A stretch of 64,000 nucleotides of DNA from Anaerolineales bacterium (GTDB lineage Bacteria > Chloroflexota > Anaerolineae > Anaerolineales > Villigracilaceae). Made by a program: the position numbers and the translations under genes. A model generated the notes under the pieces. It worked only from the letters and a program-made list of their open reading frames with translations, made no database searches and was not told where the DNA came from. The stretch covers positions 1-64,000 of the forward strand of contig JAUXUL010000005.1 of assembly GCA_030680795.1 (NCBI GenBank). Reading direction: 5' to 3'. This document shows positions 1,499-24,442 of the stretch, piece by piece. Every line of letters starts with the position of its first letter. The stretch's first letter is position 1.

Positions 1499-3805
1499 CT
1501 AATCGTCATCTGAACTAAAAACCTTCGCCCGCTTATCACGCTTATCTGGAACTTTAATGCGGTTTGAGCGATTCTTGGCAATTGCCGCCACTCCAACAAA
1601 CACCAAGATTCCAAGAATACCCAGAAATGAGATAAGGATAACTGGCAACAGCCATACGGGGGGGGGATTTGCAGGGATTCCGCCAGATAGATCAGAAACT
1701 GGGTTGATATTAACCGGTACGGAACCAGGCACAATATCATCAACAATAGAAAACGGTGATGCAGCATTACCGGTAGCGATCTGTGTTCCGTTGGTTACGG
1801 CAAACACGCCGGCTAGCTGGCTTTGTAAATCAGGCTGCAACAAACCATTTCCAGCAAGAGACACGCCGTTGTAATCGTTACCGGAAACAACAAGAATGGA
1901 GTTCTCTGCATTGAATGGAGAAGGCATTAATTCAAGGTAGCCAACGCTCACGCCAGCCGGAATTCGATAAATGACCTGCATTTGACGCTCATTGGCAGTA
2001 TTGTTTGACATATCAAAAGGCGCAGGCAGCGTATCATTCAATTCAACAAGAATTGGCACCTCGCTTGCAAGCCCAATGATGATCATAGAATTATTAGCAC
2101 GGATATCCTGCGGCACATCGTCAGCATAAATTGCCTGTAAATTTGCTATTATAGGATTAAATTGTTCTCCCAAATTATATGCAAGTTTTCCTGCGATATT
2201 CCAACTGGCGATATCGGATTTTGGAAGAATAAAGGCAATGTCCCCGAGGTCACTGTGAGTCACAAATGTTTCAGGAAAAAACTTCAAGTCTTTTAACGAC
2301 GGTTTTGAAAGACCTGCTCCTGTATCTACTGGTAGGTGAAAAACTGATTGATTAGAAACAGTAAACCAGGGGTCAGGAAATCCTGAAGTATCACAAGAAG
2401 GCGCTATGATCATACTCGCTTTGAATTCCAAGCGATTTTCTCCAAATCGAAAAACACCCGGGGGAATTTTGACGCGTAAATTTGTAACTTGTTCCGATTC
2501 TTTGCTAAATGGTGCACTGGCGATGATCTGACCATTTAGATTAATAGAGAAAGACGAGATCCCATAATCTAATAATCCCGAATGGTAATAAATCAGATCA
2601 ATATAACCTTCTTTCGATAAAACCTGCTCTTTACTCACATAAAATATGTATTCCTGGGTTTTCACGCCAATTCCAGTTAAGGTCTCTGTAACGTATCCGA
2701 TGTTCTCAAAAGTAAAGTCTTCGACAACAGGGAGCGTCTCAGAAAGTATTTGTACTTTGGAAACAAATGCGAGCGTGGGATTTTCGTAAATAAAGACCCG
2801 TCCAGAGCTGACCGCTTTACCCGCTTTAACAACAGCCTCACCTGAATTTCCGCTAACCAGCATAAGCACTTTATTCGGATTCCAAGGCGAAAGAGTTAAT
2901 TGGATAACGCCATCTTCCTCCGACACGGGCGGCATATTTACAAATTTACCGTTCGCAATGGGCATTTGAAAATTAGCATTAGACAGGCTATCGAGTTGAT
3001 CCGGGGTTCCGATAAATATCATATGATACAAGCTTGGATCCAGGCCGGCCAATTGGCTGAGGTTAATTAATTCCATGTTATAAGATGTGTTAATTACTGA
3101 GCCAAAACCGGCCATAACGTTTAATGCCGCCTGTATTTCTAAGGCGCTCGGAGAATCAGGGACGATGACTAAAGTACTGTCAGGGATAAATGAATTTTCA
3201 AGATAAAAAGGAGCCGGCAAGTTGGATAGATTTAACACCGGGCTTGATTCTTCAAAAACCAGGTCGAAAAAGGAGGTGGGTTTAATACTAACCGTGGCAT
3301 TGATATCGTAGTCACAGCTAAAGCGGGCATCCAGTAAAATTGTTAATTGATGCCGGCCATCTCCCCGAATGGGAGTTAAGGCATTAGCAGGAATACCCAA
3401 ACGGATGGTATTGCTTCCAATCTTATCAAGAGGAGCACTGCCAATAATCTGATTATTAAAAGTGACAAGCAAACTCCCGCCATACGGATTCTTCACGTCA
3501 ACAATCTTATCTAGATCTGCGCCACTAAAAATAACATCGTAATGCAATTCAATTTCACCGCCAGGAATTAACTTCCAAGTAAGCGGTGTACTGAAAAGAA
3601 CGCTGGTCACGTCAATAGGGCTGATTAATGTCTTTCCACTGAACCCCACTTCACTAAATGGGACAGATGCCATGTTGCCATTAATCTGAATCGCCTCAGC
3701 CTGTTGAGGCTGGGCAGTCATATCAGGCGCTTGTGCCGCTACTTGAAATGGACTTATCAGCAAGATATTGAGTATTCCGAACATGAGGAATAACTTTTTT
3801 TTCAT
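1499..3805 (-). CDS. BcsB-like cellulose synthase regulatory protein
   Basis: The product is 768 residues from the ATG at 3805, chosen because GGAG lies 8 nt upstream; a longer frame starts at 3829 without a site. Residues 1-26 form a signal peptide ending AQA. The body has the duplicated jelly-roll plus ferredoxin-like arrangement of BcsB (for example SVPFSEVGFSG, GDGRHQLTILLDARFSCDYD, and the second-copy NRLEFKASMIIAPSCD). Residues ~717-743 form one C-terminal membrane helix followed by a basic tail. BcsB normally guides the nascent glucan chain from the BcsA synthase on the outer face of the membrane. No PilZ-bearing BcsA is present, so the partner is probably the GT2 protein at 5479. It is followed by a strong terminator. 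Confidence 0.85.
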   Translation of the reverse strand: MKKKLFLMFGILNILLISPFQVAAQAPDMTAQPQQAEAIQINGNMASVPFSEVGFSGKTLISPIDVTSVLFSTPLTWKLIPGGEIELHYDVIFSGADLDKIVDVKNPYGGSLLVTFNNQIIGSAPLDKIGSNTIRLGIPANALTPIRGDGRHQLTILLDARFSCDYDINATVSIKPTSFFDLVFEESSPVLNLSNLPAPFYLENSFIPDSTLVIVPDSPSALEIQAALNVMAGFGSVINTSYNMELINLSQLAGLDPSLYHMIFIGTPDQLDSLSNANFQMPIANGKFVNMPPVSEEDGVIQLTLSPWNPNKVLMLVSGNSGEAVVKAGKAVSSGRVFIYENPTLAFVSKVQILSETLPVVEDFTFENIGYVTETLTGIGVKTQEYIFYVSKEQVLSKEGYIDLIYYHSGLLDYGISSFSINLNGQIIASAPFSKESEQVTNLRVKIPPGVFRFGENRLEFKASMIIAPSCDTSGFPDPWFTVSNQSVFHLPVDTGAGLSKPSLKDLKFFPETFVTHSDLGDIAFILPKSDIASWNIAGKLAYNLGEQFNPIIANLQAIYADDVPQDIRANNSMIIIGLASEVPILVELNDTLPAPFDMSNNTANERQMQVIYRIPAGVSVGYLELMPSPFNAENSILVVSGNDYNGVSLAGNGLLQPDLQSQLAGVFAVTNGTQIATGNAASPFSIVDDIVPGSVPVNINPVSDLSGGIPANPPPVWLLPVILISFLGILGILVFVGVAAIAKNRSNRIKVPDKRDKRAKVFSSDDD

Positions 3806-3972
3806 ATATAATCTCCATTTACTAAACATGCCTTACTAGATGACATTATTTGTTTTAACCGCGGAACTCTGAAACCTATTTGATTCATCCTGAATTCCGC
3901 AATAAATTCTTTACACCATAATAGTTTGATCAGTTTCGACACAAACTACAATCTTTAACCCAAATCCCGCGT

Positions 3973-5088
3973 CTAACCAAATGGCTGCACTTTATACTTG
4001 ACTACTTTCTTATCAGACTCCATGGAGCTCTCAAGTGCCCTTTCAGCCTGCCTAACCAAAACATTTATTGATTCTCCACCCTGGCGGTCTGCAATGCCAA
4101 TTCTGGGATCAAGAACAATATCAGCCCCTTGATCAGCTCCTTCGAGAGAGATAGGTTGATTTAATTCCATTCGAATTCGTTCTAACTTATTCGTCGCAGC
4201 AAGTGCTTTAGTAGAAGGCAAAAGAATACTGAACTCCACCTGGGACCATCTGCCGACAATATCATTGCCTCGAAATTGATATTTCAGCGTTTCTGTAACC
4301 TTACGTAATATTTGGTTGATAAAGGCCTGTGGAAGAGAATCGTAAATTTCCTGAAGCCCCATAAGGTGTATCACACCAAGTGTCAGTACGGTTTCCGGGT
4401 GGTTGACAATTTCCTGACGCAAGCGTCGTTCAAAATAAACACGCTTAAAAGCCTGGGACTCGGCATCAACCATATTACGTTGACTTAATTTATCCAATGT
4501 GTCTGATAATTGGTCCCTGAAAATAGCCAACCCCACACCTAAGATCAAGCCCCCTATGAATGCAAGTCCGGCACTTTGAGAGGGCCGGGGCTGGTAGGGA
4601 TCGTTTGGAATTAACGCCTTGTCGAGGAAATCAATATTATAGATAATGTACAAATTTTTAACTAAATCAATTGCATTTTGACCTATATTATTTGCCAAAA
4701 GAGCCGCAACTTCAGGGTTGGGTCCTTTCACGCTTAAGCGGATGATATTCGTATCGGGCAAAACCACCACAGATGTTATATATCCGTCAAAATCACCTGG
4801 GTTTTGACGTAACAACTCCTTTGTTCTATTGACAACCTCATGGCTGTTGAGAACCTCAGCATACGTGGAAATAATTGAACGTTTATCAAGGGCTTCAATA
4901 CTATTTACCATATCCCTGTTGTCCGTGTTTTGCAGGTTAGGACTGACAATAAATCGAGCTACGGCTTCATACATGGGTGTGGCAATATAATATGAATATA
5001 TGAGGGAGATGTTGACAGCCACCAAGGTTGTTGCCAAAACCAACCACCATCCGCGCTGGATAATTCTGAGATAATATCGGATTTCCAT
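3973..5088 (-). CDS. Wzz-type chain-length protein fused to degenerate GGDEF domain
   Basis: Residues 1-160 match the Wzz/polysaccharide co-polymerase fold: membrane helix ~14-33, periplasmic domain with YEAVARFIVSP, a proline-rich segment PYQPRPSQS and a second helix ~173-190. Instead of a tyrosine kinase, the cytoplasmic C-terminus (~200-371) resembles a GGDEF domain. Its catalytic signature is SQVEF (282-286), so it should not make c-di-GMP. RGND (273-276) sits exactly five residues before it, the position and form of the RxxD inhibitory site that binds c-di-GMP. The likely role is polymer length or export control gated by c-di-GMP. Wzz and GGDEF assignments come from motifs; binding is inferred. 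It precedes the BcsB-like gene on the same strand by 167 nt. Confidence 0.85.
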   Translation of the reverse strand: MEIRYYLRIIQRGWWLVLATTLVAVNISLIYSYYIATPMYEAVARFIVSPNLQNTDNRDMVNSIEALDKRSIISTYAEVLNSHEVVNRTKELLRQNPGDFDGYITSVVVLPDTNIIRLSVKGPNPEVAALLANNIGQNAIDLVKNLYIIYNIDFLDKALIPNDPYQPRPSQSAGLAFIGGLILGVGLAIFRDQLSDTLDKLSQRNMVDAESQAFKRVYFERRLRQEIVNHPETVLTLGVIHLMGLQEIYDSLPQAFINQILRKVTETLKYQFRGNDIVGRWSQVEFSILLPSTKALAATNKLERIRMELNQPISLEGADQGADIVLDPRIGIADRQGGESINVLVRQAERALESSMESDKKVVKYKVQPFG

Positions 5089-5478: not shown

Positions 5479-6690
5479 ATGGGTAACGCATCTATATCAT
5501 CAACGCTAATCGCTTTGCTATTTTGGCTAGCTTTAGGGGTTATTTCATACACATATTTTGGTTACCCACTATTGATTTGGATAATCTCAAGACTTCGTCC
5601 AAAATCGGAAAGTTATGAACGTCATACACCTTATATTACCTTGCTTATCGCTGCGTATAATGAAGAAGTGATAATTGAAGATAAACTAATAAACAGTCTA
5701 TCGATTGACTACCCAAAAGAAAAGCTTCAAATCCTTATAGTTACTGATGGATCAACCGATCAAACTCCTGATATAGTGAATAAATTCGCCAATTTAGGAA
5801 TAGAAAAGCTACATCAACCAGAACGGCGAGGTAAAATGGCGGCAATAAACCGGGCTATGGCGCATGCACGCGGTGAAATTATTGTTTTTTCGGATGCGAA
5901 TAACTATTACCAACCTGATACACTCAAAAAATTAATTGCCCCTTTTAGTAATCTTGAGGTTGGGGCTGTAAGCGGTGCAAAAGTGATAGGTCGCGGGGAT
6001 GGAGCCCTAGGGGCATCTGAGGGACTTTACTGGAAGTATGAGTCTTTCATAAAACAGCAGGAGAGTCGGTTGGGTAGTTGCACAAGCGTGTCCGGTGAAA
6101 TATTGGCAATAAGAAAAAATACATACAACACGCCTCCAGATAACATCATCAACGATGATTTTTATATAGCAATGCAAGTCATCCGTCAGGGACATCGCCT
6201 AGCCTACGTACCTGATGCAAAATCCAGTGAACGCGTGTCTTTAACTGCCAAAGATGAGATAATACGCAGGACACGAATTAATGCCGGAAGATATCAGGCG
6301 ATTGCCCTGGCAGGGCAACTGCTACCGTTTAATCATCCCGTACTAGTGTGGCAAATAATTTCCCATAAATTTCTTAGACCGCTGGTACCTTTTTTTATGA
6401 TAGTGCTGGCTATATCAAATTTGACGGCAGTTATATATCCTCCAAGGGCAGGCGGGGCTATTAATCTTCAACCTCCTTTTGGTGTTTTTATGCTCTGCTT
6501 ACAGATGCTATTCTATATGTTAGCCTGGTTCGGAGCCCGGCCCTCAAAACAGGAAAATCAAAGTAGGCTTATTCGATTATTATACCTGCCAACATTTTTG
6601 ACAAATAGCAATATTGCTGCTCTAAATGGGTTTTTTCAGTATTTACGCGGACAACAATCTCATATTTGGGAACGCATCCAAAGAAGATGA
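5479..6690 (+). CDS. Membrane glycosyltransferase family 2, polysaccharide synthase-like
   Basis: This 403-residue protein has an N-terminal membrane helix (~8-37), a GT-A domain and two or three C-terminal helices (~300-375), the layout of processive beta-glycan synthases such as PgaC and hyaluronan synthase. Visible motifs are AAYNEE, VTDGSTDQT, VFSDANNYY for nucleotide-sugar/metal binding, an acceptor-site INDDFYIAMQVI, and RRTRINAGRYQA in the place of the QxxRW region. No PilZ domain is present. It is divergent from the Wzz/BcsB-like pair and is followed 3 nt later by a GT4 gene. It likely polymerises or elongates the exopolysaccharide with the BcsB-like protein; the sugar is not predictable. 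Confidence 0.88.
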   Translation: MGNASISSTLIALLFWLALGVISYTYFGYPLLIWIISRLRPKSESYERHTPYITLLIAAYNEEVIIEDKLINSLSIDYPKEKLQILIVTDGSTDQTPDIVNKFANLGIEKLHQPERRGKMAAINRAMAHARGEIIVFSDANNYYQPDTLKKLIAPFSNLEVGAVSGAKVIGRGDGALGASEGLYWKYESFIKQQESRLGSCTSVSGEILAIRKNTYNTPPDNIINDDFYIAMQVIRQGHRLAYVPDAKSSERVSLTAKDEIIRRTRINAGRYQAIALAGQLLPFNHPVLVWQIISHKFLRPLVPFFMIVLAISNLTAVIYPPRAGGAINLQPPFGVFMLCLQMLFYMLAWFGARPSKQENQSRLIRLLYLPTFLTNSNIAALNGFFQYLRGQQSHIWERIQRR

Positions 6691-6693
6691 TCT

Positions 6694-7872
6694 GTGCAAA
6701 TCAAGCAATTCTATCTAAACATGAATGATATTTCAAATTTCCTTCCCAAAGTATTAATCGTAGACTTATCAATGGATTACGGCGGCTCGAGTTCGCGCGT
6801 TCTTTCACTCATGACCAAAGCCCCTCCTGGAAAGATCGCTCTAGCCGGATTAAGATCCAGTGCCATCACTCAGCAAGCCAAGCAACTTAATTTGCCTGTC
6901 CATATCCTGGGACAGCACAAAGTTGATCCGCACATCCTTTCACATCTAATGCATTTGATCCGCACGCAAGGCTACCTAATTCTAGACACCCAGAATATCC
7001 AATCCAAGTTTTGGGCAAGTATTGCAGCAAAATTAACAAACACAACTTTGGTCTCAACAATTAACAGTTGGTACGCAAACGAACATGGACATAGCTCCAT
7101 CAAAGGAAAAATTTATACGGCATTGGAGCTTTCGACAAATTGGGGATTAAGCCTGTATATAACAGTATCGGAAAAAGACCGGCAGGCTCTACTCCGATCA
7201 AAAATCACCGAAGATGCCATCGAATTGATCCATAACGCAGTCGAAGTTGATCCTGCAAAAATTTTAGGTAGCCCTGATTGGCTATGTAATAAATTCGATC
7301 TACCCTTTCAATCGTTAGTCTGCGTGGCAGTCGGCCGCCTTGTGCAAGTAAAAGGATACGACATTTTAATTGATGCCGCTCAGCGTATCGTTTCTAAGGT
7401 ATCTGAATTTATATGTATTATCGTTGGAGAAGGCGAGTGCAAAGAAGCATTAAGACGCCAGATCCAAAGAGCAGGGTTAGAAAATCAAATACGATTAGTT
7501 GGTTTTCAAAACCGGGAAACTGTACTATCCATATTAAAATCAAGCGATATATTTGTGATGCCATCCAGATATGAGGGCACACCCATCGCACTTTTGGAAG
7601 CCGCTGCTTTGGGATGTCCAATTTTAGCCTCATCCTGCGGCGGTATCCCCGAATTGGTAACTAATGATGTGCACGCGCTTTTAGTCCAACCTAATGATTC
7701 GATCGCCCTTGCAGAAGGTTTGTTGAGACTTAGCACAGATCGGAAATATGCCCACTCCCTAGGCCAAAATGCGCAGCAAAAAGTGCAAAAAGATTTCAAC
7801 ATCCATGCTCAGGTTCGAAATACCTGGAACGCATACCAAAAGGCGCGGAGTAGACACAATAAACAAGCATAA
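6694..7872 (+). CDS. Glycosyltransferase family 4 (GT-B)
   Basis: A GT-B glycosyltransferase of about 392 residues if the GTG at 6694 is used; ATG at 6721 (MNDISNFLPKVL) is an equally plausible start. The C-terminal nucleotide-sugar half has VGRLVQVKGYDILIDA, VGEGECKEALRR and the EX7E motif EGTPIALLEAAALGCPI followed by SCGGIPELV, as in Glycos_transf_1. It is translationally close (3 nt) to the upstream GT2 gene, so both probably act on the same cell-surface polymer. The sugar donor is unknown. Confidence 0.9.
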   Translation: MQIKQFYLNMNDISNFLPKVLIVDLSMDYGGSSSRVLSLMTKAPPGKIALAGLRSSAITQQAKQLNLPVHILGQHKVDPHILSHLMHLIRTQGYLILDTQNIQSKFWASIAAKLTNTTLVSTINSWYANEHGHSSIKGKIYTALELSTNWGLSLYITVSEKDRQALLRSKITEDAIELIHNAVEVDPAKILGSPDWLCNKFDLPFQSLVCVAVGRLVQVKGYDILIDAAQRIVSKVSEFICIIVGEGECKEALRRQIQRAGLENQIRLVGFQNRETVLSILKSSDIFVMPSRYEGTPIALLEAAALGCPILASSCGGIPELVTNDVHALLVQPNDSIALAEGLLRLSTDRKYAHSLGQNAQQKVQKDFNIHAQVRNTWNAYQKARSRHNKQA

Positions 7873-8176: not shown

Positions 8177-9229
8177 ATGTATTCTCAGCACACCACATCA
8201 AAAAAATCAATACGTTCGTCAATCATAATAAAATTAGCGTCCCTTGCTTTTGATTCGGGAATATTTAGAACCGGGCGTCAGTTTTGGTCGAAATCTCTGA
8301 CAGTCCTGAATTACCATCGAATTGATGATCCGCATCAAGATAGTTTCGACTCATTCCTACCGAACGTCAGTGCAATCCCAGCTGAATTCAGTCACCAAAT
8401 GGACTACCTTGCCCGTTGGTTTAATGTTATTTCTTTACACGAGTTGATAAATTGGCTTGATGGCCACCAAAGCCTGCCTGCATACGCTGCGCTAATTACT
8501 TTTGACGATGGTTATCTCGATAATTACACGCAGGCCTATCCTATCCTTAAAAAATATGATTTCCCAGCTGTCATATTTTTAACTTCCGGCCACATTGAAA
8601 CGGACACGCCATTTTATTGGGATATGGCAGCCTACTGCTTTCACCATACCAACCACGACCACGTCTTATTCCCGGAAAGCAAAGAACGATCGTGGACGAA
8701 TAAGCTTGAAAGAAGAAATGTTAACAAAGCATGGGTTGAGTCAATGAAAAACTTGGCTGATTCTGAAAAACAAAAATGGATCAACACCCTGCCAGCAAAA
8801 CTGGGGGTTTCCATACCTAAAAACTATTTTCGAAATCTTATGCTGAGCTGGCACCAAGTTCGGGAAATGAGCAACAATAGAATTGAATTTGGCAGTCATA
8901 CAATAAATCATCCGATTCTTTCGAAAATTCCTGTTGATCAAGCCTATATCGAAATTAATGAATCGAAGGTAAAAATTGAAACGGAATTGGGGCAAAAAGT
9001 CCGAGGCTTTGCCTACCCAAACGGGTCGAAGAACGACATTAATTCTGAAATCGAACAACTCGTACATCAGGCTGGTTATAGGGCAGCTTTCACATTGCAA
9101 AATGGACCCACATCTATTAGAGAAGTAAGACATAATCCTTATGCAGTACGGAGAATATTCATTTCTCATACACATACACTCCCCCAATTTGCCCTATTGA
9201 CGAATAATATTAATCGTATTCGAAACTGA
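8177..9229 (+). CDS. Polysaccharide deacetylase (CE4 family)
   Basis: A 350-residue protein with the CE4 catalytic motifs: LITFDDGYLDN (about residue 100, general base and metal Asp) and SHTINHPILS (His-x3-His metal site). Later AYPNGSKNDIN corresponds to the conserved motif 3 region. There is no clear signal peptide, so a cytosolic or membrane-peripheral location is possible. Likely removes N-acetyl groups from GlcNAc-type residues of the polymer, as PgaB/IcaB do. A truncated relative lies at 857. The preceding inverted repeat ends 27 nt before the ATG. Confidence 0.9.
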   Translation: MYSQHTTSKKSIRSSIIIKLASLAFDSGIFRTGRQFWSKSLTVLNYHRIDDPHQDSFDSFLPNVSAIPAEFSHQMDYLARWFNVISLHELINWLDGHQSLPAYAALITFDDGYLDNYTQAYPILKKYDFPAVIFLTSGHIETDTPFYWDMAAYCFHHTNHDHVLFPESKERSWTNKLERRNVNKAWVESMKNLADSEKQKWINTLPAKLGVSIPKNYFRNLMLSWHQVREMSNNRIEFGSHTINHPILSKIPVDQAYIEINESKVKIETELGQKVRGFAYPNGSKNDINSEIEQLVHQAGYRAAFTLQNGPTSIREVRHNPYAVRRIFISHTHTLPQFALLTNNINRIRN

Positions 9230-10256: not shown

Positions 10257-11507
10257 TTATTGAACATTGTTATCTAATAAACCTTCGTAATTCATTTTGA
10301 TTCTTCGGGCAATCAATTGCCAGCTAAAACGTGTTGTGGATAAATACCTGGCATACTTCCCCATTTTATTTGCTAAGTTTGGGTTATTGACTAAAACTGC
10401 GATCTTGTCTGCCAGCTCACGTGGAGATTGCGCTGGCACCAAATAACCACTTTTTCCGTCATCTACCACATCGGGTATTCCACCCACAGCTGTTGCGATA
10501 ACCGGACGGCCAAATGTGTAGGCAGTCTGCAACGCCCCACTCTGGGTGCCGCTTCGATATGGGAATACAACGACTAAAGCGATTCCCATCAAAGGCCGAA
10601 TCTCCTCTAGAGAGATGTAGTGTGCATCAAAAATTATCTGGTCGCTAATCCCAAGAGTTTTACTTCTCTCTAACAATTCATTCATGCTTATGTGCTTCGT
10701 GGGGTAGCCTGCGATAACCAGTTTGACATCGCAGGATTTTCGGACAATCGCGAATGCGTCGAGCAGATCATCCAGCCCCTTGCTTGGGGAAAGCAAACCA
10801 AAAAATAACACTATGCGTTCATTTTCCTGCAATCCATACCGATGACGGAGTACTTCCTCCGAAATGGCTGGAATATTGAGCAACCAGCCCGAGTTTCCAT
10901 GCGGGATGACAAACGTACTTTTCTCGGATATGGAAGGATGGAGGGATAGAAACTTCCTACGGATCTCTTCCGAGAGGAAATAGATAATCGAAAAATGACG
11001 GTAAATCTCACCGCTGAGGCGATCGAGTGCCAGCCAAATCGGATCGAGGTTTTCACGTAATTCAAACTCGTGACAGAGCTGGCTGACAATCACCCCGCGA
11101 TGGCGCAAATAACCCACAAAGAATGCCTCAAAGGAATATTCAATCGTGGAAAACTGTACAATATCCGGCTTAGCGCGCAGCAAATACAGGATTAAGCGTA
11201 CCCACATAAGGATCATGCGCATACCACGCACAACCCTTCTCAATGCCCAGTAGGCTATTCTCCATGCGCGCTTTAAGGGGTTCTGGCGTTCCACCTTCAT
11301 TGATTCCGGGTCGAAGTGTTCCCAGAGATTCAGGATCCTCTCCACGCGAAAATTATGGGGAAGCGCCGCCAACTCGTAATTCACTCCAGTAATCAGGGTG
11401 ACAACCACTCCCTCATTGGCTAAAGCAGTGCACATCTGGTAGGCAAAGTGAACAAGCCCCCCGCCATTATTCGGTTCGACAACAAAAAGACGTAGTTTAT
11501 TTTTCAT
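10257..11507 (-). CDS. Glycosyltransferase family 4
   Basis: A 416-residue GT-B enzyme. The N-terminal half begins LRLFVVEPNNGGGLVHFAYQ, a Gly-rich acceptor-domain start, and the C-terminal half has LFFGLLSPSKGLDDLLDAF, GTQSGALQTAYTFGRPVIA and AVGGIPDVVDDGKSGYLV. The first Glu of the classic EX7E motif is replaced (GTQSGALQTA), so this is a divergent member. Its start overlaps the upstream GT4 gene by 11 nt, placing it last in a tight minus-strand operon running from the flippase at 16625. Confidence 0.88.
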   Translation of the reverse strand: MKNKLRLFVVEPNNGGGLVHFAYQMCTALANEGVVVTLITGVNYELAALPHNFRVERILNLWEHFDPESMKVERQNPLKRAWRIAYWALRRVVRGMRMILMWVRLILYLLRAKPDIVQFSTIEYSFEAFFVGYLRHRGVIVSQLCHEFELRENLDPIWLALDRLSGEIYRHFSIIYFLSEEIRRKFLSLHPSISEKSTFVIPHGNSGWLLNIPAISEEVLRHRYGLQENERIVLFFGLLSPSKGLDDLLDAFAIVRKSCDVKLVIAGYPTKHISMNELLERSKTLGISDQIIFDAHYISLEEIRPLMGIALVVVFPYRSGTQSGALQTAYTFGRPVIATAVGGIPDVVDDGKSGYLVPAQSPRELADKIAVLVNNPNLANKMGKYARYLSTTRFSWQLIARRIKMNYEGLLDNNVQ

Positions 11508-12681
11508 ATTGTTTTATCAAGTTAAGATAAAGTTCTTTCAATTTGTCAACTTGCGCATGGATATTGAATTTCTCAGTAACGACCTGCCAACCCTGCTCGC
11601 CCATTACCTTGCGTCGTTCAGCATCAACCATCAACGAGATACAGGCGGTGGCGAGGGCTTCCGAGTCGCTGGGTGGAAGTAGAAGCCCATTCTCGCCGTC
11701 TATAACCATTTCAGGCACACCTCCCACAGCGCTCGCAACAATAGGCAATCGCGCCGCCATGGCTTCCGCCAATACCGTAGGTAGAGCTTCAGTTAAGGTT
11801 GGGAGAACGAACAAATCACTGGCTGCCAATAGTTGGGGAATATCATCGCGCTGGCCGGCGAAGATTATATGATCTCGAACCCCAGCCTGGTCAGCTTCCT
11901 GTTCCAAAGAGTCACGATGAGAACCATTTCCAACTAATAAATAATACGCGTTGGGAACTTCTGACACAATCGAAGGTAATGCGCGGATCATAAATTGAAT
12001 CCCTTTAAATTCACGCAAAACCGCAACTGTGACCAATATTTTCGCGTCATTCGGGATGCCAAATTCCTGCCGTATTTTAAAACGCTCTTGTTGATAATCA
12101 AGATTCTCAAAATGACTTAGATCAATTCCATTGTAGATTGTAAGTAATTTTCCCGCAGGAATCCTGCTGATATCCAAATAATACTTTCGTGCCTCCTCCG
12201 AGACCGACACAACCACATTGCTGAAATAACGCAGGGCGAACAACTCCACATCCTGATGAAGCCTTGATTTAAGTTTCATATCCTGCGACGGCATTGTATG
12301 AATTGTAGCCACACTTGGCAATCGTAAAAGTTTCGCGGCGATATTCCCTAATATATCTGCAATTTCAAGTTGCGTGTGAACTAAATCAGCCCTTACATCC
12401 TTTAAGTATCTATATAATCGAGGCAAAGCAGTGACGTCTCTTAAGTAGGGCACTAAAATTAAATCAACAGGTATACCTAAGGCACGCAGATCGTCCGCTA
12501 TCGGGTTGCCGTCTTTGATCTGAAGCGCACAAACGCGAGGTTCAAAATAATCCCTGTTGAGGTTTCTTAAAATCGGCATCATCAGGCGCTCAGCGCCACC
12601 CATACCGAGGCCATCGATCAAAAAGATAATATTGTATTTGCGTTTCACCTGATCATTAGATACCATCGAAAAATCCGCCAT
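11497..12681 (-). CDS. Glycosyltransferase family 4
   Basis: A 394-residue GT-B enzyme: N-terminal IIFLIDGLGMGGAERLM, then VTVAVLREFKGIQFMI, LVGNGSHRDSLEQEA and the EX7E motif EALPTVLAEAMAARLPIVAS followed by GGVPEMVIDGENGLLL. The start at 12681 overlaps the APH-like gene by 26 nt; a later start at 12663 is possible. Likely adds a sugar during repeat-unit assembly on the cytoplasmic face. Confidence 0.9.
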   Translation of the reverse strand: MADFSMVSNDQVKRKYNIIFLIDGLGMGGAERLMMPILRNLNRDYFEPRVCALQIKDGNPIADDLRALGIPVDLILVPYLRDVTALPRLYRYLKDVRADLVHTQLEIADILGNIAAKLLRLPSVATIHTMPSQDMKLKSRLHQDVELFALRYFSNVVVSVSEEARKYYLDISRIPAGKLLTIYNGIDLSHFENLDYQQERFKIRQEFGIPNDAKILVTVAVLREFKGIQFMIRALPSIVSEVPNAYYLLVGNGSHRDSLEQEADQAGVRDHIIFAGQRDDIPQLLAASDLFVLPTLTEALPTVLAEAMAARLPIVASAVGGVPEMVIDGENGLLLPPSDSEALATACISLMVDAERRKVMGEQGWQVVTEKFNIHAQVDKLKELYLNLIKQYEK

Positions 12682-15149: not shown

Positions 15150-16625
15150 CTATGCTTTTTTGGAGACACCAATCGCGCGTATCAGGTGAAACAGGTTATC
15201 CTTCTCGATCCACCATGCTACCCCAATATAACTACTGACGCCAGCCAGCATAACGAAGATCAACTGAACGAGCGGGCTTAGACTCGCCGTCAGGTAGAGA
15301 ACTGCCACAGTCGTAAAAGCCATTACCAGTCCCGCGCGAAGCGAAGGCTTTAGTTCGCTGAGAATCTCCCCCAAGGTCACCTTCAAAAATCTTGTTGCGA
15401 ACGACAGGCTGACAATCCTGCGGACCAGCACAGCGAACAAATGTCCCCATGCAACCCCGATGACGCCGAACGAGGAGCCGATCAAAAGGGAAGGAATCAA
15501 GATGATTACAGAAAAAATGGAAAGATTCAACAAAATATCAGGGCGTCCAACAGCCTTATAGATGCCGCCAATATGAAAGCCAAGCGAGTAAACCCATGCA
15601 AAAAGAGCAAGCACACGCAGCATTGGAATGGCTTCAAGCCATTGATCGCCAAACACCACCCGCACAATCGGGTCCGCGGCAATAAACAAACCCAGAGAAA
15701 TTGGTGTGGCTAATAACTCAACCAGACGTACGGAACCTAAAAAGCCGTTGCGCATTTCCTCTGGTTTATCTTGAATGGACGAAAAGGCCGGAAAGGCGAT
15801 CTGTCCTAAAACCCACAGGTTTCCGATCAAAAGCATTTCAGGTAAACGATAGGCAAGCGTGTAAACGCTGAGTTGAGCCACCCCGAACACTCTTCCAACG
15901 ATGACATAATCTATATTATCAATGATTGTGCCTAATATGTCCCCGCCGATGATTGACCCGCCAAATTTCATCAGCGATCCCGTAATTTTTCGATTGATTG
16001 TCAACTGCGGCCGCCAGGGCAGGATAATCCACACCATGATGACCGAAGCGAGCGCTCCTGCGATCTGTCCAACCACTAAAGACCAAACTCCAAAACCCGC
16101 AAATGCCATTGCAATCGATGTAATGCCTTTTACAACAGTATTCCCCATGTCGGGGATGAATTTGCGGCGGTAATCGAGTTCTCGCAACAGCCAGATCATA
16201 TGAACAGAACCAAACGCATTGATCGCGAACGACAACCCCAGCCAGCGTAATACAGGGACTACACTGGGGTCATGGAAATAATTGGCAATTGGGGGGGCCA
16301 AAGGAATGACAATTGCCGATATTAAAAATCCCAGGATTATATTTATTGTAAAAACTGTATTGGCTGCTTCTTTCACATCTCCACGACTCTGGATCAACGC
16401 GACCCCCAGTCCTAAATCCTTTATGACTGATAAATAACTAATAACAACGAATGCTATCGCAACTTGACCAAATTCCTCTTTTGTTAATAAACGCGCCAAG
16501 ACCGAGGTGGTCAGCAATACAGCAAATTTACCGAAGCCAAAGGCAAGAGTATTCCAAAGAATTCCTCGCGTTACTTTTTGCGGTAATAGGAGGCCGATAT
16601 CTTGATTATCGGAATTAGGGATCAT
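15150..16625 (-). CDS. Wzx-type polysaccharide flippase
   Basis: A 491-residue hydrophobic protein with about 12-14 membrane helices and the WzxC/MATE-like signature TRGILWNTLAFGFGKFAVLL at the N-terminus, then LLTKEEFGQVAIAFVVISY. This matches lipopolysaccharide/teichuronic acid exporters of the MOP superfamily. It should move undecaprenyl-linked repeat units across the membrane for the Wzy polymerase at 17694. It starts the tight operon ending at 10257. Confidence 0.93.
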   Translation of the reverse strand: MIPNSDNQDIGLLLPQKVTRGILWNTLAFGFGKFAVLLTTSVLARLLTKEEFGQVAIAFVVISYLSVIKDLGLGVALIQSRGDVKEAANTVFTINIILGFLISAIVIPLAPPIANYFHDPSVVPVLRWLGLSFAINAFGSVHMIWLLRELDYRRKFIPDMGNTVVKGITSIAMAFAGFGVWSLVVGQIAGALASVIMVWIILPWRPQLTINRKITGSLMKFGGSIIGGDILGTIIDNIDYVIVGRVFGVAQLSVYTLAYRLPEMLLIGNLWVLGQIAFPAFSSIQDKPEEMRNGFLGSVRLVELLATPISLGLFIAADPIVRVVFGDQWLEAIPMLRVLALFAWVYSLGFHIGGIYKAVGRPDILLNLSIFSVIILIPSLLIGSSFGVIGVAWGHLFAVLVRRIVSLSFATRFLKVTLGEILSELKPSLRAGLVMAFTTVAVLYLTASLSPLVQLIFVMLAGVSSYIGVAWWIEKDNLFHLIRAIGVSKKA

Positions 16626-17693: not shown

Positions 17694-19178
17694 CTACTCC
17701 AGTTGAGGTTTTGCGATCGCTTGTGAAGACTCCTTATTGTTATTGAGAATCTCATCTGTTATCCGAATCGCGGCAATGCCAAGCCCGGCTAGAATCCAGA
17801 AATAACGAATATATGCCCCATGTAAAATGGTGGCCGCTATTAAATACCCAATTAGGGAAGCCTGTAGGGAACTGATCCAGGGCGACCATGTTCGTTGCAG
17901 GATGGGCAAGTGGGAAACAGACCTTTTGGCTTTGGCTAAACCACTAAATAACGATACTATAACTCCAACAAAGGCCAAAAATCCCAGTAAACCATTCTCA
18001 GCAAGAAGTTGAATATAGAGGGAGTGGGGATCGCGCGGTTCAGCGCGTATTTCAATTCCAATAATTTGCGAAAACTTTTGATAATTGGGCTTGTAATTTA
18101 ACGGGCCAATCCCCAGCAAGGGACTTGATTTAAACATGCTCAACCCAGTCAATAATTCACTACTGCGGCCTCGAAAGGAACTGTCCTGATAGACACTATA
18201 TTTGTTAGAAGGCACCAAAATGAGCAACGAATTAAACCGGTCCGCATAGCTTGCAGGCAGGAACTGGATGGTTAGTAGTATCAATCCAACACCAGCGATA
18301 GCGATCATTGGACTAAATTTATCTTCAAACACGAAGAATATCAACAGTACAACAATGGCGAGTGCCAGGTACGCTCCTCTGCTATAAGTATTTAGAGTCT
18401 CTAACAAAAGAACTCCCAAAATCAACACAGCGAATATTTTTATGAAAGTGCGCCGTTCATGAATGATTCGAAATATAACCAGGGCAATAACGGCGACAAC
18501 CGTTTGTCCCCACATATTTGGCGCGTTGATCGGACCTCCCAGGCGCGCAGCATAATCTTCCACCGTCACCATGGCAAATCCAAAGAAATTCTGGTTGTAA
18601 TTTCCTGAAACGGATTGATAAAGACCCAAAAGCGACAACCCAAATGTAACCAGAATTACGACCCAGATTGACCGTTTCCAGGTTTCTGGGGTTCGCAAGG
18701 TGAACAAAAGACAGTAAATAACGATGATATCTTTACCTAAGTCCAAGATTGCAGCAAGCGCTTGATCCTTATATGAAGCCATGAAGAAAGATGCAGTATA
18801 AATTACAAAAAATAGAATTAGGAATGATTCAATCCTCTTCGTTTTTGAGTGTTCGATTGTTGATTTTTCGAAATACAAATACCTCGAGGCAATAGTGATT
18901 GCGACAACCAAGACAAGAGGTTTTATAATGCCCGGATATCCATAATTTGTTAATTCGTCAGAGATGTTCGAAAATACAGCGACGATTAGAATATTCGCGC
19001 CAAAACCTGGGTTTACAAAGATAATCAGCGCAAGAGCAATACCGATCAATCCCGCCAAACCGTATAAACTCAGATCACTGTCCAGGTTGCTAACTGCCAG
19101 AGTGATTCCAACTGGAAGAACAATGCTAAGCACAAGAAAAAGCATGTTATTATTATTGGGATTAAAATTTAAGCGCAT
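17694..19178 (-). CDS. Wzy/O-antigen ligase family membrane protein
   Basis: A 494-residue polytopic protein (about 12 helices). The Wzy_C region is clear: RGRSSELLTGLSMFKSSPLL, then GIGPLNY and DPHSLYIQLLAENGLLGF, the conserved large periplasmic loop with catalytic His region. Start at 19178 is chosen because GGAGG lies 5 nt upstream; a TTG at 19190 would overlap that site. It likely polymerises flipped repeat units, or ligates the glycan to an acceptor. Confidence 0.9.
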   Translation of the reverse strand: MRLNFNPNNNNMLFLVLSIVLPVGITLAVSNLDSDLSLYGLAGLIGIALALIIFVNPGFGANILIVAVFSNISDELTNYGYPGIIKPLVLVVAITIASRYLYFEKSTIEHSKTKRIESFLILFFVIYTASFFMASYKDQALAAILDLGKDIIVIYCLLFTLRTPETWKRSIWVVILVTFGLSLLGLYQSVSGNYNQNFFGFAMVTVEDYAARLGGPINAPNMWGQTVVAVIALVIFRIIHERRTFIKIFAVLILGVLLLETLNTYSRGAYLALAIVVLLIFFVFEDKFSPMIAIAGVGLILLTIQFLPASYADRFNSLLILVPSNKYSVYQDSSFRGRSSELLTGLSMFKSSPLLGIGPLNYKPNYQKFSQIIGIEIRAEPRDPHSLYIQLLAENGLLGFLAFVGVIVSLFSGLAKAKRSVSHLPILQRTWSPWISSLQASLIGYLIAATILHGAYIRYFWILAGLGIAAIRITDEILNNNKESSQAIAKPQLE

Positions 19179-19200
19179 AGCATCCTCCAAACAAACACAC

Positions 19201-20331
19201 TCATTGTACTATAGTAGACGGAAAATTCCAGTCTATAACGTCATACCATTCAGGGGGAATATTGCGCAACATGTCGCTCGACCAGATTTTTTCATCCCAG
19301 TTAGCGGTGGCGCTCCCTTCTGGGTAGGTTTTGGGGTGTCCACTATTATCCACAATAAATCCGCCAAATTTCTGCATGGCAACAACCCAGACTATACAAC
19401 CCTTTACTCCAGAACAGGCTTTGATAATCTCCTCCTTTGATATTTCAGGATGGATGACGATACGCGCACCTTCCGGTATATCGCCATTTGACAGACCTCT
19501 ACCATCCGTTTTTGTAAACGGAGGAATTACTTCCGGCCAGCCATTTACCCGGCAAACATCAGGAGCACATGGATAGTCATATGCCAGCGTGACCGCATGC
19601 TCGATGGAACCACGCTCCACTTCACATCGACGGATAATCCCAGAATAGTTACCAATACCTGCGCCACGTTGACCAAAACCCAGCGGCGGGACTCCTGAAT
19701 TTCGTATGTGATACCGGTAGGCTCCATCTGCCAACCAGTTCCCCAATAGATCTATCTCACCCTTGTTAATACCCCATTCTTCTCCAGTATCCCTATTGAC
19801 AACCACGAGCTGCCCATCGGTTCCCGGAGCAGGCTGCGCTCCTGGCGGGACAGGCATCCAAATCGTTGAAGCCGGCTCGCCATATTGAATTTCCATATCA
19901 TTGAAAGCATCTCGAAATCGATTTTTGCTTAATTTTACAGGAACTAGAGGGGTTGTTCCATCCACAAAATAAATATTTGGTGCATACTGCGATGGATCAG
20001 AGCCTATCCATCGAGTGCCGTTCCAAAACGCATCCATCATTTTCCCACTATCGGGATGAATTCTGGCTACAGACCAATCGATCGGCACGTTCCAAATTGA
20101 AGATTTTGAATAAGGACGGCTGCATACATCCTGATCCTTTACATTACCCAACTGAGAAGCCTGCTCATCGCCATTGATATTTTCAATAGCACCCACTTCG
20201 CCTGCTGGGGATTCTAATACGGGAGAGCATGCCGCTCCCATTAATACCGCCCCAACAAATACAATGAGAAGTTTTTGGGAGAGAACATTCTTATATTGAT
20301 GCTTTCGAGAAACAAAATATGGAGCGATCAT
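19201..20331 (-). CDS. Secreted lipoprotein of unknown family
   Basis: A 376-residue product with an N-terminal hydrophobic segment ending VLMGAACSP, an imperfect lipobox, so it is probably lipid-anchored or secreted. I do not recognise a named domain. Conserved-looking patches include SIWNVPIDWS, GQRGAGIGNYSGIIRR, EHAVTLAYDYPC, PEGARIVIHPE and KFGGFIVDNSG. The last pattern resembles uncharacterised secreted proteins that share GARLxLDP and YGxYVxDNSG motifs. Four cysteines in the middle may form disulfides. It overlaps the CelD-like gene by 4 nt and lies 22 nt before the Wzy gene, so it is co-transcribed with export functions; a carbohydrate-active role is a guess. Confidence 0.7.
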   Translation of the reverse strand: MIAPYFVSRKHQYKNVLSQKLLIVFVGAVLMGAACSPVLESPAGEVGAIENINGDEQASQLGNVKDQDVCSRPYSKSSIWNVPIDWSVARIHPDSGKMMDAFWNGTRWIGSDPSQYAPNIYFVDGTTPLVPVKLSKNRFRDAFNDMEIQYGEPASTIWMPVPPGAQPAPGTDGQLVVVNRDTGEEWGINKGEIDLLGNWLADGAYRYHIRNSGVPPLGFGQRGAGIGNYSGIIRRCEVERGSIEHAVTLAYDYPCAPDVCRVNGWPEVIPPFTKTDGRGLSNGDIPEGARIVIHPEISKEEIIKACSGVKGCIVWVVAMQKFGGFIVDNSGHPKTYPEGSATANWDEKIWSSDMLRNIPPEWYDVIDWNFPSTIVQ

Positions 20332-21515
20332 CGCTTCTCTTCCAGCCAATATTTGAATCGCTTCAATCTTTCGAATATCTCGGGCATGGATGCAAGCTTT
20401 CGCTTCCCCTCCAACAATTGGTTTTCAAACCAATAACGATCCTTGCTTCTTATTAACCGAATCCAATACATGGACATGGTATTTGTAGAGAGGCTTGCCT
20501 TGTATTGGGATTCTCCAGCAAGGAAATCATAAAGGGAATAACCTTTTTCTGTATTATGAAGGATCCCAAAATAATGTGAAACAAGTCCCGGTCTATAAAC
20601 ATTCTCTTCGGCATAATTAAACCCGCTTTGATAAAACAAAACATTTCCTTCATACACAAAGTTATAAAGATAGCCGATTGAGGATTTTTCATTATAAACT
20701 TGAAGCAATTGAATTTCACCATTTTCAAATCTATTTTGAATTATATCACGGTGAAAGCCGTAAAAATATTGATCGGAAAAAGCCCCCGGTCTATTCCTTC
20801 TTTTCCACTCCCGCTGATGCAAACTTACCAAATCATCAAACATCAACAGCGCATCTGCTTGACTACCGGCCTCACGAATTAGAATTTTCCCCTCCAGCTC
20901 GTATTGTTTGATGGATCTACGGATCTGACTTCTCCTATTGGAACTAAGCAAACTAAGAAAATCCATGTCCAAATCGCGTATCTTTTGAAGATCAACATAA
21001 TAAGAACTCTCGGTTTTATCTAATATCGTATAAAAATCATGCCAATCGCCTTTCAGTAACCCCATGGAAGAGACAAAGTCCGGGGAAACCCCTTGAAGTA
21101 TAAATTCATCCCAACCCCCAATAGGTTTAAGCAGGTCTGTAATTTTTATTGAAAGATCGGAAACCATAAGAATCGAATTATATTCAATGAACAACTGGTC
21201 AAAATGCGAATCCCCAGTTGAATTTAATGAATACGTTTTCGAAGGCAAGAATCCGTAGCGAAATCCCCTTTTACGTCCCACAAAAAAGGCAACAACAACT
21301 TTATCGTCAAGGTAGCCGACTATTAGTTGAATGTTGTTTTTAGCGGGCAAACTAAACAGCCAGGTGGATATCCATCCCCAGGATGTGAAGTAGTTATGAC
21401 TGCATTTTTTAGATATTTTCAACCACACATCCTCTGTAAAGTTAATATTCACAAAAGGATCAAATATCTCAAATCGTAATTCTGCAATATCCACATAAGA
21501 ATTTACAACAGACAT
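20328..21515 (-). CDS. CelD/BcsL-like GNAT acyltransferase
   Basis: A 395-residue protein matching Acetyltransf_6 (CelD/FemAB-like) proteins of polysaccharide clusters. Recognisable regions are SWGWISTWLF near residue 45, RRSQIRRSIKQYELEG, LHQREWKRRNRPGAFSD, FHRDIIQNRFENGEIQLLQV and YRPGLVSHYFGI followed by YDFLAGESQYK. Two GNAT-like halves are implied. It probably acetylates or otherwise acylates the exopolysaccharide. The stop overlaps the start of the downstream lipoprotein gene by 4 nt. Confidence 0.82.
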   Translation of the reverse strand: MSVVNSYVDIAELRFEIFDPFVNINFTEDVWLKISKKCSHNYFTSWGWISTWLFSLPAKNNIQLIVGYLDDKVVVAFFVGRKRGFRYGFLPSKTYSLNSTGDSHFDQLFIEYNSILMVSDLSIKITDLLKPIGGWDEFILQGVSPDFVSSMGLLKGDWHDFYTILDKTESSYYVDLQKIRDLDMDFLSLLSSNRRSQIRRSIKQYELEGKILIREAGSQADALLMFDDLVSLHQREWKRRNRPGAFSDQYFYGFHRDIIQNRFENGEIQLLQVYNEKSSIGYLYNFVYEGNVLFYQSGFNYAEENVYRPGLVSHYFGILHNTEKGYSLYDFLAGESQYKASLSTNTMSMYWIRLIRSKDRYWFENQLLEGKRKLASMPEIFERLKRFKYWLEEKR

Positions 21516-22901: not shown

Positions 22902-23585
22902 TTAGTGTGCCCCGCGTCCCTTGAAAACAGCAAACATCGTAAGAAACAGAATGCTGATATCCATCCACAAACTGCGTCTCTCAATGTAGGCGATATCCAA
23001 CCGCAGGCGGTCATCGAACTCCATCGAAGCCCGGCCAATGATCTGCCACAAGCCAGTTAAGCCGGGTATAACATCCAATCTTTCAGTTTGCCATAACTTA
23101 TAGGTTTCTGCGCCGAAAGAAGTGGGCCGCGGCCCGACCAGACTCATCTCACCTTTAAGAACATTGATCAACTGAGGCAATTCATCCAAGCTGGTCTTTC
23201 GCAGGATGTTACCCACTTTTGTAACGCGCGGATCATTAGTAATCTTAAAATCAGGCCATTGCAACTCATTCAAATGAGCATATTTTTCTTTTAACTCCTC
23301 AGCATTGGAAACCATTGAACGAAATTTATACATACTGAAGCGTTTACCGCCTTTTCCCGTGCGGAATTGTGTGAATATTGCAGGCGCTCCCGGAGAAGTG
23401 AGTGTAATAATTAACCCTAAAATACCAACCACCGGAAGCCAAAATGGAGAACTTAATATCACAAGGGTGAGATCGATCGTTCGTTTTAAAATGAAATAAG
23501 AACGTCCAGTAAAAATACGCTTCTTTGGGTCAAAAGAATTGATCCACGAATGCTGGCCAACAGCTGTAAGTGTCTTACTGATCAT
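22902..23585 (-). CDS. Undecaprenyl-phosphate sugar phosphotransferase (WcaJ/WbaP-like catalytic domain)
   Basis: A 227-residue protein with one N-terminal hydrophobic hairpin followed by the bacterial sugar transferase domain: FILKRTIDLTLVILSSPFW, YKFRSM, KTSLDELPQLINVLKGEMSL with VGPRPTSF, and PGLTGLWQIIGR. It lacks the N-terminal CoA-binding-like and four-helix region of full-length PglycT enzymes. It transfers a sugar-1-phosphate to undecaprenyl phosphate, starting repeat-unit assembly. Its start overlaps the degenerate GGDEF gene by 4 nt, a translational coupling that ties the priming step to that regulator. Confidence 0.93.
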   Translation of the reverse strand: MISKTLTAVGQHSWINSFDPKKRIFTGRSYFILKRTIDLTLVILSSPFWLPVVGILGLIITLTSPGAPAIFTQFRTGKGGKRFSMYKFRSMVSNAEELKEKYAHLNELQWPDFKITNDPRVTKVGNILRKTSLDELPQLINVLKGEMSLVGPRPTSFGAETYKLWQTERLDVIPGLTGLWQIIGRASMEFDDRLRLDIAYIERRSLWMDISILFLTMFAVFKGRGAH

Positions 23586-24442
23586 TTCACAACTTGCTCT
23601 TTCGTTTGAATAAGCGTGTTGGGTTCTGGCAATTGCTTCGAGCGATCACGCGCCAATTGCAATAGGTCTTCAAAGGTTAAGGCTTCGTCAGGGAAGGCAG
23701 CAACACCGCAATTAACGTGAAGCCCGGCCCGCTCTTCAACGAGGCGGCAAATACGCTCTGCCAGAAAACCAGCCCTTTCCAAATCAGTCTCCGGACAAAG
23801 AACAAGAAACCGCCCAATCCGGTCTCGGATGAGCAGATCCGATTGACGAATGCTTTCACCAATAGTTTGTCCTATGCGAGCATTGGACAAGCGTGTAAGC
23901 ACGTCACGCTGCAAACTCTTCAACATCTCACGGACAATTTCATCATCCTTTGGGTAGGCACGCACTACCAACAAGGAGAACGGACGATGATAACGTCTAC
24001 TTCGTCCGAGCTCGATATTTATCTGTTCAGAAGCAGCATCCAATTCAATAGCCCAGTGAGGGAATGTCGCTTGGGCTAAAACATCCATCAGTGATTCTGA
24101 GCGCTGGATCCCAACAGCCAGTTGGTACGATAGCCACACCCCCACTTCCAAAATCACGATCTCCAAAACAATCACCTCTACATCCATGGAACCTGTATTG
24201 GCACGATTTATAATCTGTGAAAGCCCAAAATAAATTGCGCCCCAAAAAATCATGGGTACAACAAAAGACACTTTGTTAAGGGATGGCACAAAAACCATCA
24301 CTGGTACAAGGAAGATCGCGACAAGATAAAAATATGCCGCAAAGTTAATAATCGGTGTATCGGAACGGTCTAATTGAGCAAGCACCAGCACAATCAGCAA
24401 ATAGAAGGCAATCCAAAAAAGGGACTTTTTGAGGTTAGTCAA
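23582..24442 (-). CDS. Membrane protein with degenerate GGDEF domain
   Basis: A 286-residue protein: four membrane helices in residues 8-118, then a cytosolic GGDEF-like domain. RRYHRPFSLLVVRAYP corresponds to the strand that normally holds the first metal-binding Asp. The signature is RIGRF (208-212) instead of GG(D/E)EF, so diguanylate cyclase activity is not expected. RQSD (199-202) stands exactly five residues upstream, matching the RxxD inhibitory site. GVAAFP near 246 is the usual late GGDEF strand. It likely reads c-di-GMP and acts on the coupled priming transferase; binding is inferred. Confidence 0.85.
   Translation of the reverse strand: MTNLKKSLFWIAFYLLIVLVLAQLDRSDTPIINFAAYFYLVAIFLVPVMVFVPSLNKVSFVVPMIFWGAIYFGLSQIINRANTGSMDVEVIVLEIVILEVGVWLSYQLAVGIQRSESLMDVLAQATFPHWAIELDAASEQINIELGRSRRYHRPFSLLVVRAYPKDDEIVREMLKSLQRDVLTRLSNARIGQTIGESIRQSDLLIRDRIGRFLVLCPETDLERAGFLAERICRLVEERAGLHVNCGVAAFPDEALTFEDLLQLARDRSKQLPEPNTLIQTKEQVVK

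Follow-up and report, generated by a model that had tools for sequence, protein, structure and literature searches.

A Wzz-type co-polymerase that carries a degenerate GGDEF domain, a candidate c-di-GMP receptor in an exopolysaccharide gene cluster of an Anaerolineales bacterium

The window analyzed here is a 64,000-nucleotide stretch of contig JAUXUL010000005.1 from an Anaerolineales bacterium. It encodes, at 3973-5088, a protein that we call WzzG, in which a degenerate GGDEF domain follows a Wzz co-polymerase in a single fused chain; the gene lies on the minus strand, which was left unstated in an earlier interpretation made from the letters alone (hereafter the sequence-only reading). The genes and features of the cluster are the following.

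1499..3829, minus strand: BcsB-like protein, the next gene downstream of WzzG (Pfam BcsB, E 4.2e-40)
3973..5088, minus strand: WzzG, 371 aa, fusion of a Wzz co-polymerase and a degenerate GGDEF domain (ORF and translation, Pfam, AlphaFold2)
4009..4476, minus strand: WzzG residues 205-360, degenerate GGDEF domain, presumably facing the cytoplasm (Pfam, match to PleD 2wb4, catalytic residues mostly lost)
4177..4179, minus strand: R304 of WzzG, 28 residues past D276, at the position of the third I-site arginine
4261..4272, minus strand: I-site motif R273-G-N-D276 of WzzG (RxxD kept by 23/23 close homologues and by 11/13 far ones)
4504..5088, minus strand: WzzG residues 1-195, comprising TM1, the extracytoplasmic Wzz part and TM2 (Pfam, hydropathy, model helices, Wzc profile match)
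5479..6690, plus strand: GT2 membrane glycosyltransferase, divergent from WzzG and conserved near it (Pfam and NCBIfam)
6694..7872, plus strand: GT4 glycosyltransferase (Pfam)
8177..9229, plus strand: polysaccharide deacetylase (Pfam)
10257..12681, minus strand: two GT4 glycosyltransferases, 10257-11507 and 11497-12681 (Pfam)
15150..16625, minus strand: Wzx-type flippase (Pfam Polysacc_synt_3, E 2.3e-83)
17694..19190, minus strand: Wzy-type polymerase/ligase (Pfam Wzy_C, E 3.1e-19)
22902..23585, minus strand: initiating sugar transferase, overlapping TMG by 4 bp (Pfam Bac_transf, E 9.2e-61)
23582..24442, minus strand: TMG, 286 aa, four hydrophobic segments and a second degenerate GGDEF domain (ORF, Pfam, model, hydropathy)
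23753..23848, minus strand: I-site triad R199, D202 and R230 of TMG, conserved in the homologue sets

The best NCBIfam match of the GT2 protein was PgaC/IcaA, at 84.9 bits far under the cut-off of 422.3. Two minus-strand ORFs inside the cluster (19201-20349 and 22130-22858) have no Pfam match at E 0.01, and a homologue of the second (47%) lies next to a Wzy gene in another genome (G054, locus L210). A 110-aa ORF at 857-1189 on the plus strand resembles the N-terminus of the deacetylase, with a similar start and a different end; judging from the two sequences, this likeness is a partial duplication flanking the BcsB-WzzG-GT2-GT4 block.

Two Pfam domains were identified in WzzG, Wzz (PF02706) at residues 4-89 (E 6.5e-12, 46 bits for a cut-off of 25.5) and GGDEF (PF00990) at residues 208-356 (E 2.8e-14, 53.7 bits for a cut-off of 23.8), and residues 149-191 gave a weak match, below the cut-off, to GNVR, the region found beside Wzc-type kinases. 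Hydropathy revealed two hydrophobic segments (about 13-35 and 171-192) and the AlphaFold2 model, built from 48 sequences (mean pLDDT 83.8, pTM 0.48), helices at 14-35 and 169-206, a predicted topology that is the one of the Wzz family, with two transmembrane helices around an extracytoplasmic domain. Pfam, hydropathy and model thus agree with the Wzz-like N-terminus with two helices proposed by the sequence-only reading. With both hydrophobic segments in the N-terminal part, the GGDEF domain is expected to face the cytoplasm, the compartment that contains c-di-GMP. A structure comparison of residues 201-371 with PleD (2wb4) yielded a Z score of 23.5 and an rmsd of 2.0 over 167 residues; a fold unlike GGDEF was not seen, and the GGDEF fold first read at the C-terminus is confirmed. 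The motif string is RGND-IVGRW-SQVEF, with RxxD five residues ahead of the GGDEF position, and E285 and F286 are what the window protein retains of the GGDEF signature; the replacement of GGDEF by SQVEF, the RxxD spacing of RGND and the numbering of R273 and D276 had all been given correctly. No kinase domain was matched in WzzG and its C-terminal domain is a GGDEF by profile and by fold, so the protein lacks the cytoplasmic tyrosine kinase domain of the PCP-2a (Wzc-type) co-polymerases. A profile of the WzzG family nevertheless aligned, over residues 147-205, with Wzc 405-463 (whole-sequence E 1.1e-6, with no single stretch passing 0.001), which we take to be TM2 plus the segment just ahead of the kinase.

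Homologues were searched with the whole WzzG protein at E 1e-20, independently of the motif. Matches were obtained in 21 of the 61 genomes of a family sample, in 23/249 genomes of a class sample, five of which (G161, G293, G255, G180 and G110) have a Wzz without GGDEF, and in 24/400 genomes of a phylum sample, where this is the case for at least three (G430, G589 and G605); the survey of Chloroflexota genomes proposed by the sequence-only reading thus recovered WzzG matches together with some Wzz-only ones. One phylum-sample locus (L193) gave no match on re-search. Residue counts were made on 36 GGDEF-bearing WzzG sequences (23 close, 13 far) from the family and class samples, after the removal of seven rows corresponding to Wzz-only proteins (L106-L109, L111), a sequence cut by a contig end (L014) and a near-duplicate (L010). 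A contig scan with RG[NR]D returned 51 loci, of which L095-L098, partial matches to the GGDEF region (25-37%), were removed to leave 47 full relatives. The conservation of RxxD in these relatives was rejected as evidence because the scan itself had used RG[NR]D, and the whole-protein homologues were counted instead; the column lists A1 and A2 were likewise set aside for this claim. As the architecture recurs in full-length homologues with identities of about 60-84% and 35-48%, it is not a product of chance: the Wzz-GGDEF architecture is real, from Anaerolineae to Herpetosiphon, mostly with TMG alongside.

Several individual homologues deserve mention. A contig labelled Planctomycetota (VGXV01000052.1, L048) carries a WzzG 84% identical to that of the window with the same neighbors (polysaccharide deacetylase, GT2, BcsB), and is probably mis-binned. 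Three far paralogues (L025, L026 and L027; 26-29% identity) each share a genome with a close WzzG, and consist of Wzz plus a degenerate GGDEF with REED, REVD or REDD at the I-site and without the third arginine. A WzzG relative annotated as a hypothetical protein (BCY19478.1) was found on a plasmid of Leptolinea sp. HRD-7 (AP024711.1, L232), where it is followed by two tandem BcsB-like genes and a deacetylase, this exopolysaccharide cluster being plasmid-borne; no TMG was marked in the 25-kb plasmid stretch with the 15 cluster-protein queries.

As a control for residue conservation we used 26 GGDEF domains, presumed to be active, from four WzzG-bearing genomes. Of the 28 loci examined there, L132 and L144 were missed by the pattern and left out; one of the 26 has DGDEF and two have GGDEL, hence "presumed". 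The comparison was made on the 32 positions conserved in at least 85% of these control domains. Among the 23 close WzzG sequences, the metal and GTP positions are nearly all lost (D241 is kept in 1, D243 in 2, K356 in 1, and K246, N249, D258 and D349 in none), as are those of the loop (G282 in 5, G283 in 0, E285 in 4), and no GG[DE]EF was found among the 36 WzzG sequences or in the TMG loci of the wider set and of the phylum sample. The window protein itself has an SQVEF loop and mostly lacks the metal and GTP residues. We thus rejected WzzG as an active cyclase, the GTP/metal and loop residues being lost in nearly all 23 close homologues. Some degenerate GGDEF domains do stay active, such as, reportedly, the AGDEF of VCA0965 (PMC3974145), and the window WzzG retains E285, but the disappearance of D241, K246, N249, D258, D349, K356 and the loop glycines from nearly all 23 sequences makes it very improbable that the domain is still catalytic or binds another nucleotide.

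By contrast, R273 and D276 are each kept in 23/23 close homologues and RxxD in 11/13 far ones, the other two having lost the first arginine, so that the lack of RxxD conservation among orthologues, which the sequence-only reading had named as a refuting outcome, was not seen. RxxD is also present, in the alignment, in each of the 11 additional GGDEF-bearing WzzG that the phylum sample contributed (L181-L191, of which six are near-identical). The third I-site arginine of PleD is R390, after D362, and we take R304 to be the corresponding position; it is an arginine in 20/23 and a serine in 3/23 close WzzG, and an arginine in 1/13 far ones. In sequence, WzzG therefore combines what is expected of an I-site receptor, i.e. 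a degenerate GGDEF, a conserved RxxD and R304 as third arginine. RxxD is near-universal in the control cyclases (R in 25/26, D in 26/26), which led us to reject it as a feature gained by WzzG. It is inherited from active cyclases, and the argument for a receptor is therefore one of selective retention: the residues of the cyclase drift while R273 and D276 (23/23) and R304 (20/23) stay. The non-universality of R304 was counted against this argument, as was the lack of TMG in 4 of the 21 family-sample genomes with WzzG. Other control-conserved residues are also kept in the 23 close sequences (R280 and G331 in 23, D208 in 22, F286 in 21 and A351 in 20). The retention of RxxD could be partly structural, because the motif is near-universal in active cyclases and R280, outside it, is equally kept.

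A second degenerate GGDEF protein, overlooked by the sequence-only reading, was reached through a weak match in a GGDEF profile search of the window (23642-23878, minus strand). This protein, TMG, has a Pfam GGDEF match at E 1.1e-5, and its model (pLDDT 73.8) superimposes on 6d9m with a Z score of 17.8 and an rmsd of 2.7 over 139 residues, the GGDEF-like part beginning at about residue 127, directly past a helix spanning 88-125. The last 4 bp of its gene are at the same time the first 4 bp of the gene for the initiating sugar transferase. The triad R199, D202 and R230 is invariant in 14/14 homologues, complete in 28 of the 30 loci of a wider set, which includes the near-identical L197-L199 and L152-L153 as well as the window's own copy (L149), and kept in 21/21 of the phylum sample. 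The two exceptions, L169 and L170, lack all three residues; both belong to one genome (G251), and no other TMG of the set has diverged as far (28% and 22% identity). Thin as the numbers are, such a joint loss is more readily explained, as far as these sequences can tell, by a ligand site than by a structural role of each residue on its own. No GAF domain was matched in TMG by Pfam, a difference from the PelD layout of four transmembrane segments, GAF and degenerate GGDEF, and for this reason we did not adopt TMG as a PelD orthologue; PelD is absent among the structural matches listed for TMG and WzzG, a listing that does not exclude it. In G589 and G605 (L195, L196, L227 and L229), a TMG with an intact triad lies about 4.6 kb away from a Wzz without GGDEF, so TMG may work without WzzG.

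The main alternative for the domain itself is that the GGDEF fold serves only as a dimerization or docking module that does not bind c-di-GMP, RxxD being a structural leftover. The retention of R280 in 23/23 sequences, the inheritance of RxxD from active ancestors and the non-universality of R304 all speak for such a role, and kinase-independent co-polymerase scaffolds have been proposed, e.g. the BY pseudokinase EcpK for EpsV (PMC12004946). However, RxxD stays while most other cyclase-conserved positions drift, and the TMG triad, although spread over 32 positions, is kept or lost jointly, with only two losses in one genome. Moreover, the Leptolinea WzzG, read by eye from its translation, has R280 replaced by K and yet retains RSND and the third arginine. 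We therefore consider a mere scaffold quite unlikely. The core of the sequence-only reading, a co-polymerase of an exopolysaccharide cluster bearing a catalytically degenerate GGDEF with an I-site, stands, while it had overlooked both TMG and the near-universality of RxxD.

WzzG and TMG tend to occur together. The 61 genomes of the family sample divide into 17 with both, 4 with WzzG only, 2 with TMG only and 38 with neither (Fisher p 1.6e-9), and the 400 of the phylum sample into 18, 6, 3 and 373, respectively (p 2e-23), both p-values ignoring shared ancestry; three of the 18 phylum double-positives are unconfirmed as fusions (the Wzz-only G589 and G605, and G637, cut by a contig end). TMG is present in 21 of the 25 genomes with a WzzG match, and in 17 of the 21 genomes carrying both the two genes lie on one contig within 20 kb, the exceptions being G051 and G011, where they are on different contigs, and G041 and G264, where they are far apart. 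In Herpetosiphon aurantiacus (G395), a single strand carries TMG, sugar transferase, GT4, GT4, WzzG, Wzy, Wzx, GT4, GT4, GT2, a 628-aa ORF and BcsB, presumably as one operon; the same order recurs in L198-L200, i.e. in 4/4 loci examined of family f79. The sugar-transferase match of the H. aurantiacus locus (L197, about 6521-7033) is confined to residues 57-227 of the protein encoded in the window and is longer in L198-L200, and its start or frame may differ.

Neighboring genes were counted in the 46 contig-scan rows with WzzG, leaving out L028-L047, which partly come from the same genomes as L048-L094; L032, L033 and L055 show no WzzG owing to an ORF-picking artefact, a longer antisense ORF having displaced it. 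The gene after WzzG is BcsB in 31/46 rows, belongs in 12/46 to a cluster whose representative matches Wzy_C, and is neither in three. Because BcsB rather than Wzy comes next in most rows, the machine controlled by WzzG is uncertain, and the receptor could control a synthase-type machine made of GT2 and the BcsB-like protein, in the way that PelD acts on Pel or BcsE on cellulose, instead of a Wzx/Wzy one. In line with such an assignment, a GT2 gene adjoins WzzG in divergent orientation in the window, and in H. aurantiacus a GT2 gene belongs to the run that contains WzzG. However, the 12 rows with a Wzy_C-cluster gene and the presence of a flippase and an initiating transferase within the cluster argue for the Wzx/Wzy route, and Wzz proteins accompany Wzx/Wzy systems; control of a synthase-type machine thus appears rather unlikely.

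The replacement of the usual tyrosine kinase, proposed by the sequence-only reading, is upheld in part. The genome of the window has no TIGR01007 kinase above the cut-off (best score 48.6 bits for a cut-off of 108.05), and the profile alignment to Wzc 405-463 points in the same direction. However, 15/25 WzzG genomes have a TIGR01007 kinase somewhere, so the replacement is at most at the level of the locus. Concerning the signal, the window's genome has one PilZ match and, beyond WzzG and TMG, five strong GGDEF domains, three of them with an intact GG[DE]EF, and for this reason c-di-GMP can probably be made.

Among the closest known systems is PelD, also a membrane protein with a degenerate GGDEF, which binds c-di-GMP through RxxD plus a further arginine and is needed for biofilm. 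PelD of Bacillus cereus binds c-di-GMP with a KD of 103 nM, and R363A, D366A and R395A each abolish detectable c-di-GMP binding as well as adherence and biofilm (PMC7112168). The third arginine lies 29 residues past the aspartate in B. cereus PelD (R395/D366) and 32 in that of Pseudomonas aeruginosa (PMC7112168), compared with 28 in WzzG and TMG. WzzG differs from PelD in having a Wzz co-polymerase in place of the four transmembrane segments and GAF, and TMG in that its four hydrophobic segments come with no GAF found and with Wzx/Wzy-type neighbors. BcsE (PMC7439463) likewise has a degenerate GGDEF with an I-site and binds c-di-GMP in the cellulose secretion machine, but it is cytosolic and not fused to a co-polymerase. 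WzzG shares with Wzc and other PCP-2a proteins the Wzz-type membrane part and a cytoplasmic domain past TM2, with a degenerate GGDEF in place of the kinase and tyrosine-rich tail, and its 371 aa make it shorter than the 727-aa Wzc chain. Octamer assembly and disassembly of PCP-2 proteins are described as driven by tyrosine phosphorylation, and the pseudokinase-linked co-polymerases of the EcpK/EpsV and HfsB/HfsA pairs are proposed to act without it (PMC12004946); these rely on a separate pseudokinase partner, whereas in WzzG a candidate ligand-binding domain is fused. Most likely, WzzG works like PelD or BcsE without being a PelD. No account of a Wzz-GGDEF fusion was found in the open-access literature among the matches listed.

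Taken together, our results make it probable that WzzG is a co-polymerase with a cytoplasmic c-di-GMP receptor domain instead of a tyrosine kinase, directly gating a Wzx/Wzy exopolysaccharide machine. c-di-GMP, probably as an intercalated dimer able to bridge GGDEF domains at PleD-type I-sites, would bind R273, D276 and R304 and alter the association of neighboring GGDEF domains beneath the Wzz ring; this association would in turn drive the assembly and disassembly of the ring, hence polymerization and chain length, as tyrosine phosphorylation does in Wzc and CapAB. TMG would perhaps carry the same signal to initiation. A more elaborate scheme, which we put forward tentatively and hold to be rather doubtful, is that, within the co-polymerase ring, c-di-GMP dimers link one degenerate GGDEF domain to another in place of cycles of phosphorylation, and that they also act via TMG on the initiating transferase, in which case cross-linking of WzzG and TMG by shared c-di-GMP may tie initiation to chain-length control.

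How co-polymerases that have no working tyrosine kinase are driven is a question raised for EcpK/EpsV (PMC12004946), and a candidate ligand-binding domain in the place of the Wzc kinase would offer a clean, switchable case. As the WzzG gene run is present in a cultured type strain, Herpetosiphon aurantiacus DSM 785, the proposal is testable. If true, c-di-GMP would have a direct post-translational input to the Wzx/Wzy route, whereas the directly gated Pel and cellulose machines are synthase-dependent.
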